From positions 1 through 51,319 of the forward strand of contig JAQXQN010000050.1 of assembly GCA_029101185.1 (NCBI GenBank): 51,319 nt of DNA. The letters are read 5' to 3'. Numbering within the stretch: the first letter of the stretch is position 1; every line of letters starts with the position of its first letter. A program made the translations under genes and the position numbers. The notes below the pieces were generated by a model. That model had not been told where the DNA came from and ran no database searches. It saw only the letters and a list, made by a program, of their open reading frames with translations. The DNA comes from Eggerthellales bacterium (GTDB lineage: Bacteria > Actinomycetota > Coriobacteriia > Coriobacteriales > Eggerthellaceae). Of this stretch, positions 25,747 through 29,988 are shown one piece after another.

Positions 25747-26936
25747 TACGGTCTCCTTTCGGCTTCTGGCGAAGCGTCCCGTCCCATGGGGTCATCAAGC
25801 ACCTCAGAAGGATCCTTCCCCAGGCCGTCGCTTCGAACGACTTTGACCCGCAGCTCCAATCTGGGATTCATGACCAGTTCCATCACGCCACCGGACGCTT
25901 CGACGCGATTACGAAGATTGCTCAAGCCCCCGCCTTCCACCACGGGATCTTGCGGAGGAGCCCCGTTGCTCGCGATTGTCAAATCATACCAGTCGGGCTC
26001 GGCGGTCAGGCTCACGTAAAGGACATCCGCCCCGGCGTGGCGCACCGCGTTGACCATGCCCTCGCGGACCGCCGCGTGGATAATGCGGATTGCGGGGTCG
26101 TCATCAAGAGGCAGCGCGCCACTGACCTGCACGTCAATGCCGATCGCCCGCCCGGCTTTCACGATAGCCTCCGCGGGATCCGGCTTCTTGCGAGGCACGA
26201 TTTGCTGACGTAGCAGGGCCGCGGCACTTCGCCAGGAGTCCACGATTCCCTGATACTCCCCCACCCCGCCGGCGGCTAGGAATCGCTTGGTGGCGGCGAG
26301 GGTCTGGCCGATCTCGTCATGGATGCGCGCCTTGGTCTCAAGGATTTCCTCCTGCCTGACCAGGGAATTCACCTCTTTGTTATAGGTGAGCAGACGTTTA
26401 TTGGCCTCAGAGAGCTGCTGGTTTTCCCGCTCAAGTTCTTGGCTCACCAGGTACCGTGACGTCATATCCGTTGCCTCGATCATCCAAATCCGCTGGTCGG
26501 AGAGGGTGATAAGCGAGCGAGAAAAAGTCCAGACGCTGCCGTTCTCAAGCACCACGGTGGGCTGGGAGGCCTGGGCCATACGCATGCCTCGCAGCAACGG
26601 AAGCGGTTCCGTGCCTACGGAATCCGTGCTGGGGAGTTCCTCCAGATAGGAGGGGTCAACCTGGGCCCAGAACCGCACGCCGTTGATAAGGGTTTCCCCT
26701 GTCAAGCTCAGGCTCAAATCACGCATGACGGAGTTGACCAGGATGACTATCCCGTTTTCCTGGTAAAAGCACAGCCCCTGCTGGATGTAATCTATGCCGA
26801 AATGAACTGCCCGCGCCACAGCCGACTGGCGAAATGGGCTGCAGCTTAGCAGTTTGCGTTTGACGCGCTCCCCGCGGGCTTCCCCCAGCATCCCACGGCC
26901 GCCCTTTGGCACCTTGGATTTAGCGTTCACAGCCAT
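25746..26936 (-). CDS. Soluble sensor histidine kinase (HisKA_3-type)
   Basis: 396 residues and no transmembrane segment. The N-terminal 170 residues look like a PAS-type sensor, followed by a coiled coil (about 165-200), the phospho-acceptor His 206 in RIHDEIGQTLA, and an ATPase domain with N-box EGMVNAVRHAGA and G-box GGGLSNLRNRVEASGG. It pairs with the LuxR regulator downstream. The ATG at 26936 lies inside the 3' end of the upstream multi-TM gene (17-base overlap), so translation is coupled. The C-terminal tail (GRDASPEAERRP) is made by a motif copy. Confidence 0.88.
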   Translation of the reverse strand: MAVNAKSKVPKGGRGMLGEARGERVKRKLLSCSPFRQSAVARAVHFGIDYIQQGLCFYQENGIVILVNSVMRDLSLSLTGETLINGVRFWAQVDPSYLEELPSTDSVGTEPLPLLRGMRMAQASQPTVVLENGSVWTFSRSLITLSDQRIWMIEATDMTSRYLVSQELERENQQLSEANKRLLTYNKEVNSLVRQEEILETKARIHDEIGQTLAATKRFLAAGGVGEYQGIVDSWRSAAALLRQQIVPRKKPDPAEAIVKAGRAIGIDVQVSGALPLDDDPAIRIIHAAVREGMVNAVRHAGADVLYVSLTAEPDWYDLTIASNGAPPQDPVVEGGGLSNLRNRVEASGGVMELVMNPRLELRVKVVRSDGLGKDPSEVLDDPMGRDASPEAERRP

Positions 26937-28647
26937 CACCCACCTGTACTGAAACGCTGCGCGTACACAAGCCACCACCTTCGGGAGGATCCAGCTCCAC
27001 GGTCAGCTTAAGCTCCCCGAAGGATTCCGTCACGCTCACCTGCGCATCAACCGAGATCAGACCCTTGAAGTTGGCTTCGATCGCCTTCTGGAACTGATCG
27101 TACAAATCGATGCAGACAGACACCGCCACCATCTGGGACGCTTCGTCATGATAATCAGAGGCAACAGGAGCGGGTCCAACAGGCGCAGGCCCAACGGGCG
27201 CGGGCCCAACGGGCGCGGGCCCAACGTATGCTACGCAATAGGAGGTCCGCACGCCGCATATCCGCAGAGCCTCGGCAGACTCCCGAAAACAGTACGCCAG
27301 CTCCTGGACGTTGAGGGCATTCGCGCCTTCCGCCATCAGCAGCAAGTTGGAGCGGCGCTTCACGTACGATCCCAGAACGCATACGTATTTCAGCAGTTCA
27401 TAGGCCATCTGGGGAGATTCCACCACGTCGTCAAGCATGTCATCGATTGTTGCCAGCTGGCCACTGGTCTCCTGGACGATGCGGTCATAGAGCTCGGAGC
27501 GGATCTTGACTCGGGCAGCCCGGGCCTTCAACGCGTTCTCGCGGACCAGGATCTCGTCGGCGGCGGTCAGCTCCTCTTTGATGTTGGTCAGCTGGTCGAG
27601 CATGGAATTGAGGGCCGACACATCCTCCCGCCACAGCACGTATCCAAAGGGCGCCCTCTCCACCCGGGTCCGCGTTACCCTCGTATCCGACCCTCCTTGC
27701 CTGACCTGGGATTGTAGGATGGACAGAGGCACCGACTCCAACCCTTGCGAAAGTGTCAGGAGCTCCACGTCCTGGTCAAAGAGGGCGATCTCCAACTGGG
27801 AGCAGGAAATCATCCGGCCATACTGGGTGTTTGAGGGTATGAGCCCTTCGGCGGTCAATGCCTCCATGGTGAGCACCACAAGCACGATAAACGCGTCGAT
27901 GAGCAGGATGCCCGGGCCGTGCTTGAACGTAACGATGGAATAGACGTATATGGCGAAGTAGACCATCATCACAATCATCACGATGGTGGGAAGCGCCAGA
28001 CTCGGGCGGATGCCCCGACGCAGGCAATAACGCTGAAGCACGTATACGCTCGACGCCAAGAGATACGCGATCCACCCCATCACCAGATAATACCCAAACC
28101 GATAGGTGTACGTGAGATTGCCCTCCGCTGCGTAGTCGATGTCAAACACTAGCCCGTGCAGGTCATTGGAAAGCACCAGGACAAACACGGCCGCTGTTGC
28201 CACGCAAAGCGGGACCGTTCTAACAGCAGGCGCGACCTGTCTTTCGGATACTGCCAAGCGAGACGCCAAGGCCAGAGCCAAGGGGGCTCCCAGCATAGGC
28301 GCGTAGTAGAAGTACCAAAATAGCCGATCAACCACAGGAAGCCAATCGAAGGCATAGCGGGCCCATTGCACTTCCGTCCAAAACAACATGCAGGCCAGTG
28401 CTGCCCAGGTGAGCCATCGATAGCCCAAATCCCTCATCCTCGATATGGCAAAGAATCCCCATGTCGAAATGAACAGGACGCGAATCGGCATGGTAATGAA
28501 TCCGCGAATATCGCTCTCGAAGCCCCAAAGGAGCATGGTGCAATACCTCGCGGTCTCTACGACGGCAAGGAACAAAAAACACGCGACCACCGCAGGGGCA
28601 ACCCGCACAATTGCGTGTCGAAGACGACGAAGGCGTTCTACCGCCAC
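26920..28647 (-). CDS. Multi-TM sensor-like protein lacking a kinase ATPase core
   Basis: 575 residues. About eight hydrophobic helices occupy residues 10-265, similar in layout to the 7TM sensor modules of histidine kinases. A cytoplasmic part follows with a coiled coil (about 335-375) and a helical pair resembling a dimerisation domain (RIVQETSGQLATIDDML), but the acceptor His is missing and no N- or G-box of an ATPase is seen. A PAPVG tandem repeat (about residues 473-493) separates a final domain. It overlaps the soluble kinase gene, so it may be the membrane input partner of that kinase. The GTG start is supported only by a distant AAGGG. Confidence 0.75.
   Translation of the reverse strand: MAVERLRRLRHAIVRVAPAVVACFLFLAVVETARYCTMLLWGFESDIRGFITMPIRVLFISTWGFFAISRMRDLGYRWLTWAALACMLFWTEVQWARYAFDWLPVVDRLFWYFYYAPMLGAPLALALASRLAVSERQVAPAVRTVPLCVATAAVFVLVLSNDLHGLVFDIDYAAEGNLTYTYRFGYYLVMGWIAYLLASSVYVLQRYCLRRGIRPSLALPTIVMIVMMVYFAIYVYSIVTFKHGPGILLIDAFIVLVVLTMEALTAEGLIPSNTQYGRMISCSQLEIALFDQDVELLTLSQGLESVPLSILQSQVRQGGSDTRVTRTRVERAPFGYVLWREDVSALNSMLDQLTNIKEELTAADEILVRENALKARAARVKIRSELYDRIVQETSGQLATIDDMLDDVVESPQMAYELLKYVCVLGSYVKRRSNLLLMAEGANALNVQELAYCFRESAEALRICGVRTSYCVAYVGPAPVGPAPVGPAPVGPAPVASDYHDEASQMVAVSVCIDLYDQFQKAIEANFKGLISVDAQVSVTESFGELKLTVELDPPEGGGLCTRSVSVQVGDGCER
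27170..27229 (-). repeat. 15-bp tandem repeat x4 encoding PAPVG
   Basis: Four 15-bp units, in frame, encode a Pro-Ala-Pro-Val-Gly repeat in the cytoplasmic part of the multi-TM sensor-like protein. Confidence 0.85.
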
Positions 28648-28749: not shown

Positions 28750-28845
28750 GATAAGGCGTGATGTGCTTATAATGCCACGGATAGCCCCTTACATTGAGGG
28801 ACATCTGGAGCAAACCCCCTATCTGAACCTATTCAAGGAGCAATT

Positions 28846-29763
28846 GTGCCATCTCAGCCACAGACGTTTTCCGCCAAAGCCTCTACTGGATCCGAGACCA
28901 CCGACCATTCTTGCGGGTCAGGACGCTTCGACAGACAGAATGCACAGCCAGCGATGCGGGAGCGCGTGCGGGGATTCGTGGAGTCGGATCCGTTCAAGCT
29001 AGCGATTATGATCATCGTGGTAGTGAACTCGGTTATCGTTGGCGTGCAAACCGCACAGCTGCCCACAGGCGTATCCTGGACGCTTAACGCCATTGACGTA
29101 GTATTTCTTGTCGTGTACACGGCTGAGGCGACCCTGAAGATCTACGCACTTGGAGCGGGCTATTTCCGCGACCCCTGGAACGTGTTTGACTTTCTGATTC
29201 TGCTACTGTGCGTTGCATCGTCGGCATTTGTGCCCATTCCAGCGCAAGCGGCTCGAGTTCTACGAGTCTTTCGCGTGGTGAGGGCGCTGCGGCTGGTAAC
29301 TGCATTTAAGGAGATGCGGATTATTGTGGAGGCGATCGGACGATCAATCCCGAGCGTCTGTTGGACTGCGCTGTTGCTGACGGTAATCATGTACGTGTAC
29401 GCGGTGATAGGAACCAGCATATTTGGAAGGGAGTTCCCCGATCTGTTTGGGAATCTGGGGGCAAGCCTGTTCACGCTGTTTCAGACCATGACCCTTGAGG
29501 GGTGGTCGGGAGACGTTGCCCGACCTGTTATGGAAGTGTTCCCGATTTCGTGGGTGTACTTCGTCAGCTTTGTTGTGATTGCTGCGTTTGTCGCGCTTAA
29601 CGTTGTCGTGGGCATCGTAGTGAACACCATTGAGGAAACCCAGAGAAACGCCAGGAATCAAGAGGTTCTTGAAGGAGGCTCCGACCTGCAACGGGAGTTC
29701 CTGGCTTTGCGGGAACAGCTTAATCGAGTTGAAGCCCTGATTGAATCGGACAGCGGGCGATAA
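28846..29763 (+). CDS. Voltage-gated cation channel (BacNaV type) with TLEGWSG filter
   Basis: 305-residue single-domain channel with six helices. S4 carries five arginines every third residue (137, 140, 143, 146, 149: RVLRVFRVVRALR). The pore segment FQTMTLEGWSG (filter at 216-222) matches the FQVMTLESW of bacterial sodium channels except for Gly in place of Ser. S6 (about 236-262) leads to a C-terminal coiled coil (LQREFLALREQLNRVEALIE) that should help tetramerise. The GTG start is well supported by AAGGAG. The first 37 residues are not conserved and hold one ACGCTTCG motif. Likely a sodium or calcium channel. Confidence 0.92.
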   Translation: MPSQPQTFSAKASTGSETTDHSCGSGRFDRQNAQPAMRERVRGFVESDPFKLAIMIIVVVNSVIVGVQTAQLPTGVSWTLNAIDVVFLVVYTAEATLKIYALGAGYFRDPWNVFDFLILLLCVASSAFVPIPAQAARVLRVFRVVRALRLVTAFKEMRIIVEAIGRSIPSVCWTALLLTVIMYVYAVIGTSIFGREFPDLFGNLGASLFTLFQTMTLEGWSGDVARPVMEVFPISWVYFVSFVVIAAFVALNVVVGIVVNTIEETQRNARNQEVLEGGSDLQREFLALREQLNRVEALIESDSGR

Positions 29764-29784: not shown

Positions 29785-29988
29785 TTGACCACCTGCCGTG
29801 GGCGAAATGCTATCCCGGTTGTTATTTAACTGGTTGACCACCTGCCGTGGGCTGGCGTATCCGCCCGTTTAAACCTGGCGTATGCGCCCGTTTAAACCTG
29901 GCGTATGCCGCTTGTTTGCTTGTTTATGCCGCTTGTTTATGCCGCTTGTTTATGCCGCTTGTTTATGCCGCTTGTTTATGCCGCCGCC
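29785..29988. repeat. Cluster of tandem repeats (19, 23 and 13 bp) between the channel and exonuclease genes
   Basis: Three families in a row: TTGACCACCTGCCGTGGGC twice (29785, 29834), a 23-bp unit starting CTGGCGTATSCGCC twice (29852, 29875), and the 13-bp unit TATGCCGCTTGTT four times in a row from 29925 with an earlier copy at 29904. The last 13-bp units run into the exonuclease stop codon (29976-29978). Confidence 0.85.

Follow-up and report, generated by a model that had tools for sequence, protein, structure and literature searches.

A canonical-type bacterial sodium channel relative with a TLEGWSGD filter, predicted to be permeable to both Na+ and Ca2+

The channel gene, its product and its surroundings

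The window, meaning the whole stretch of 51,319 nucleotides analysed here, carries a gene for a single-domain voltage-gated cation channel, the features of which are collected in Table 1. The reading frame is intact with no internal stops, and its product matches Pfam Ion_trans over residues 49–269 (167.5 bits, E = 3.8e-49). In sequence searches the solved single-domain chains of the bacterial sodium channels (BacNaVs) NavMs and NavAb are matched at ~6e-53 and ~1e-50, respectively. The earlier note had described a voltage-gated channel with a TLEGWSG filter and a pore like that of the bacterial sodium channels, and both statements are borne out. The Ion_trans match and the conserved scaffold rule out chance or a frame artefact as the origin of the open reading frame. 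The gene encodes the only channel of the BacNaV kind found in the genome; one further Ion_trans match is weak (19 bits).

Table 1. Features of the channel gene and its product, in window coordinates
Feature	Position	Strand	Basis
Probable ribosome-binding site AAGGAG, 5 bases before GTG	28835..28840	+	sequence
Voltage-gated cation channel gene, single-domain, 305 aa, GTG start, TAA stop	28846..29763	+	ORF, Pfam, sequence search, AlphaFold2
S1 helix, residues 48-68	28987..29049	+	AlphaFold2 secondary structure
S4 voltage-sensing helix, residues 133-153	29242..29304	+	alignment, AlphaFold2
P1 pore helix, residues 204-215, including Q213 (= NavAb Q172)	29455..29490	+	alignment, AlphaFold2
Selectivity filter TLEGWSG + D223	29491..29514	+	sequence, alignment
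Remainder of P2 helix, V224-E231, including conserved R226 (= NavAb R185)	29515..29538	+	alignment, AlphaFold2
S6 pore-lining helix continuing into cytoplasmic neck and C-terminal helix, residues 235-303	29548..29754	+	AlphaFold2

The AlphaFold2 model, which describes the monomer only, has a mean pLDDT of 85, with values >90 in the pore, and lays out S1–S4, the S4–S5 linker, S5, two pore helices and a long S6. When this model is used as a Foldseek query, structures of NavMs, CavAb and NavAb rank first. NavAb and NavMs are the nearest solved single-domain structures both by sequence and by fold; they share with the channel the single-domain six-transmembrane fold, the S4 arginines, the filter length, Gln172, Arg185 and the long S6 with its C-terminal helix, and differ from it in the filter (TLESWSMG versus TLEGWSGD), with ~36% identity. 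In the alignment, R140, R143, R146 and R149 of S4 correspond to the NavAb gating arginines R99, R102, R105 and R108. The heptad-like end of the protein, LQREFLALREQLNRVEALI, suggests that its C-terminus may be coiled-coil-like. By analogy with the family, the channel would form a homotetramer in which the four S4 arginines sense depolarisation and the S6 gate opens in response, with the C-terminal helix presumably keeping the tetramer together.

The gene is flanked by a divergent LuxR-family response regulator gene, two sensor-like open reading frames with no Pfam match, and an exonuclease gene. One sensor-like frame (26920–28647, minus strand) encodes a membrane protein with a VGPAPVGPAPVGPAPV repeat and is divergent from the channel gene. 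None of the neighbours is conserved among the loci of relatives, the regulator and the sensor-like frames beside this channel not being common to them, and a function read from the gene neighbours was rejected for that reason. Just 3' of the channel gene, 29852–29984 holds two tandem repeat arrays (23 bp x 2.6 and 13 bp x 5.2), the latter consisting of perfect copies of GCTTGTTTATGCC.

Channel genes of this kind were found in 16 of the 395 genomes of the order and in none of the 11 other genomes of the genus. The GC content (0.55; GC3 0.63) is somewhat lower than that of most neighbours measured and near that of the exonuclease gene (0.55, 0.59), and therefore gives no clear sign of recent transfer. 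A phage or mobile origin was likewise rejected: no relatives were found in viral contigs, plasmid matches are distant only, the neighbours are not conserved, and the one phage match is weak. This last is a channel fragment, 36% identical to our channel, near the end of MT835812.1 (16644–17087), a "Bacteriophage sp." record of 17 kb that carries no annotation and comes from human faeces.

The filter and its phylogenetic placement

The filter proper runs from T216-L-E-G-W-S-G222 (29491–29511), with E218 at the position of the glutamate ring, and is followed by D223 (codon at 29512–29514), the NavAb equivalent of which is Gly182. Relative to NavAb, whose reference sequence was checked against 5yua, there are three differences, with Gly219 in place of Ser178, Gly222 in place of Met181 and Asp223 in place of Gly182, that is, Ser4Gly, Met7Gly and Gly8Asp. 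The earlier note had correctly seen the glycine at position 4, where serine is characteristic of canonical BacNaVs, if not universal among them; it overlooked the change at position 7 and the next residue, D223. Shared with NavAb are Gln172, Glu177, Trp179, Arg185, Pro186 and all four S4 arginines; the NavAb filter is held by a hydrogen-bond network made up of Gln172, Glu177 and Arg185 (PMC12919392).

Among 217 homologues, 141 have a filter of canonical length (TLESWSMG-I-x-RP) and 76 have filters that are mostly one residue shorter (TLEGWx-D-I), where the aligner chooses on which side of the acidic residue the one-residue gap falls. L063, with TLEGWVDV, is an example of the short type, which the CavMr filter TLEGWVD also fits, so CavMr itself would appear to be a short-filter channel. 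Our channel resembles CavMr and the AnclNavs in having Glu3, Gly4 and an acidic residue close to where the P2 helix begins (PMC7041947); in CavMr-type filters an acidic residue nearly always stands just before the P2 hydrophobic residue. In contrast, the CavMr filter belongs to the shorter type and has Val6 and Asp7, whereas ours has Ser6, Gly7, Asp8 and one residue more. The AnclNav-like short channels have mostly Arg at 172 and Tyr at 185, while our channel has canonical length and the canonical residue at both positions. CavMr also has an extended L6 loop with a disulfide (PMC10120453), whereas the P2–S6 loop here is short and lacks Cys.

Several further arrangements were seen among the homologues. 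Six channels that are otherwise collinear (L044, L053, L058, L065, L082 from Nesterenkonia, and L100) have filters of the form TLSSWETI or TLSNWQNV, lacking the high-field-strength glutamate. Channel genes occur as adjacent pairs at L036, at L067, where one filter is long (TLEDWAAG) and the other short (TLEGWNEL), and at L229/L259 (G1039, contig 71). The window's own order has a short-filter relative, L244 (G1229; TMEGWQD), whose neighbour is an SNF-type sodium symporter-like frame.

A phylogeny, which the earlier note had proposed, sets the channel apart from the relatives of CavMr. In trees built without the filter columns, with AnclNav-like channels standing in for the CavMr group and CavMr itself absent, the channel falls inside the canonical, NavAb-type BacNaVs, in a clade of 12 (support 100/98) whose members all come from the window's own order, kinship being taken from the genome search. 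The AnclNav-like L063, L074 and L151 lie far away, beside NaChBac, and AnclNav-like relatives mostly lack the Gln172 and Arg185 that our channel has. Membership of the CavMr/AnclNav group is ruled out by the tree and the filter length. Within the clade, six relatives (49–55% identity) keep Ser4, with TLESWSMG in L084, L094, L095, L096 and L105 and TLESWSAG in L243, the closest member (53–55%). Five others have short filters, four with Gly4 (L104, L097, L099, L085) and one with Ala4 (L098); in L104, L097 and L099 the filter is TLEGW[AP]D, the CavMr-like short type. Neither a grouping of our channel with the short set (AU p 0.17) nor one with L243 alone (0.30) is rejected, and its end branch is long, at ~1.03 changes per column. 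One genome of the clade (G419), an assembly with 8% contamination, holds both a long Ser4 channel (L105) and a short Gly4 channel (L104).

Glycine at position 4 and an acidic residue at position 8

In the first collection of canonical-length filters, residue 8 is Asp or Glu in all 13 Gly4 channels and in only 1 of 119 with Ser4. Loci fetched later, a partly independent set since L276 and L277 (two of its five Gly4 channels) are close kin of L125, give 4 of 5 and 2 of 38; in the remaining Gly4 channel, L268 (TLEGWVEG), the acid stands at position 7. Pooled, an acidic residue 8 accompanies 17 of 18 Gly4 filters and 3 of 157 Ser4 filters, the latter in L012, L282 and L285 (Fisher p 1e-19, kinship ignored). 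On the best tree, Gly4 changes at least 11 times and the acidic residue 13 times, and an opposite-direction contrast appeared in only one of 200 random pairings of contrasts. On well-supported branches there are 4–5 independent Gly4 contrasts, nearly all in the same direction, too few for a sign test to reach 0.05. Within a single family, L125, L276 and L277 have TLEGWSED while their near relative L278 has TLESWSEA.

These observations suggest that the paired change arose several times independently among relatives of the sodium channels. The canonical-length Gly4 channels that share an Asp or Glu at 8 with ours (L007, L125, L169, L222, L204, L263, L266 and a Sulfuritalea/Propionivibrio group) come from other bacteria and have a separate origin on the tree. 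The filter of L222, TLDGWSGE, is nearly the same as ours, while the Sulfuritalea group retains Met7 (TLEGWAME) where our channel has Gly7.

The recurrence of the pair also bears on the idea that the filter differs merely through weakened selection on a decaying gene. The long end branch and the scattered distribution (16 of 395 genomes of the order, 1 of 12 in the genus) would fit such a history. However, the frame is open behind a plausible ribosome-binding site, the fold is predicted with high confidence, the four S4 arginines, Gln172, Glu177, Trp179 and Arg185 are all retained, and the same Gly4/acidic 8 combination recurs in other channels; we consider decay very improbable.

Predicted ion selectivity

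The earlier note had called the channel possibly calcium-selective on account of Gly4. Its statement that this glycine matters in CavMr and occurs in mammalian CaV domain I is right, the eukaryotic CaV domains with it being I/III (PMC7041947). In CavMr, which a 2026 paper gives as the only identified prokaryotic Cav (PMC12919392), G4S lowers PCa/PNa from >200 to 11.9, and D7M leaves a value of 144, so that selectivity is kept; NavAb carrying the CavMr filter gives no current (PMC7041947). A review proposes a link between Gly at the "beacon" position and Ca2+ selectivity in one-domain channels (PMC10120453), a rule that is contradicted for the canonical backbone by the 2026 NavAb data: S178G prefers Li+, with PCa/PNa <0.05, whereas S178G/M181A has lost the Li+ preference and has a value of 0.47 (PMC12919392). 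M181A gives 0.36–0.47 with or without S178G, and Met181 is reported to exclude divalents (PMC12919392). Therefore, given the canonical clade, the canonical length, the S178G data and the currentless CavMr filter in NavAb, the step from Gly4 to calcium selectivity is insecure and Gly4 alone is insufficient in NavAb, while raised Ca2+ permeability is plausible because Met7 is lost and an acidic residue is gained at 8.

The nearest measured analogue is NavAb S178G, S178G/M181A (LivAb; PMC12919392), with Gly4, a small residue at 7 and a canonical backbone, although the double mutant has Ala rather than Gly at 7 and lacks the acidic residue 8. On this basis we predict, with rather more confidence than doubt, that the channel is a canonical NavAb/NavMs-type BacNaV with a mixed Na+/Ca2+ filter and a PCa/PNa of roughly 0.3 to 20; judging from these analogues, it probably passes Ca2+ besides Na+. 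Gly219 would remove the side chain above the E218 ring, leaving a wider outer mouth and an exposed ring; with Gly222 the divalent-excluding residue of NavAb would be lost; and Asp223 would supply a second acidic ring of four charges at the start of the P2 helix. The three changes, which together depart from the Na+-selective TLESWSMG, may act jointly. Mixed permeation is expected because S178G/M181A passes both ions comparably, and the extra acid should push the filter further towards Ca2+.

The main rival to the mixed Na+/Ca2+ reading is high Ca2+ selectivity, in which Gly4 and Asp8 together stand in functionally for the CavMr filter in a canonical backbone. This is possible, though we hold it unlikely. 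CavMr requires Gly4, as G4S demonstrates, the canonical-length Gly4 filters regain the CavMr-type acid before the P2 hydrophobic residue, and the sisters L104, L097 and L099 carry short CavMr-like filters. But S178G does not raise Ca2+ selectivity in NavAb and the transplanted CavMr filter gave no current, CavMr also needs Val6 where our channel has Ser6, and the D7M result shows that the acidic residue is not decisive in CavMr. A historical version, to which we give about the same small weight, would have canonical BacNaVs repeatedly evolving Ca2+-selective filters through linked Ser4-to-Gly and Gly8-to-acid changes, after which the clade of our channel lost one residue to give TLEGW[AP]D. 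If so, bacterial calcium channels would have come from sodium channels many times, and not from the AnclNav group alone.

Conversely, the canonical scaffold may dominate, so that the filter changes merely tune monovalent selectivity or block in a functional Na+ (or Li+/Na+) channel. The canonical clade and length and the retained Gln172 and Arg185 speak for this, as do NavAb S178G, still Na+/Li+ selective, and NavPp, which prefers Na+ despite more filter acids (TLEDWTD). We nevertheless consider a Na+ channel unlikely, since Met181, whose replacement in M181A already admits Ca2+, is replaced here by Gly, and an added acid ring in a canonical channel normally favours Ca2+, as in CavAb (cited in PMC7041947, PMC10120453).

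The mixed Na+/Ca2+ reading carries a simple, testable rule. Should Gly4 be effective in canonical channels only where residue 8 is acidic and Met7 is gone, these changes would turn a sodium channel into a calcium-permeable one, and natural near-matched pairs are at hand in our channel versus L243/L094, L125 versus L278 and L154 (TLEGWAME) versus L155 (TLESWAMG). The published view that canonical BacNaVs do not show Gly at position 4 with an acidic or polar residue after it (PMC7041947) would then need qualifying. The main interest thus lies in the recurrent Gly4/acidic 8 pairing and the clear mutational prediction that it offers, more than in this single channel.
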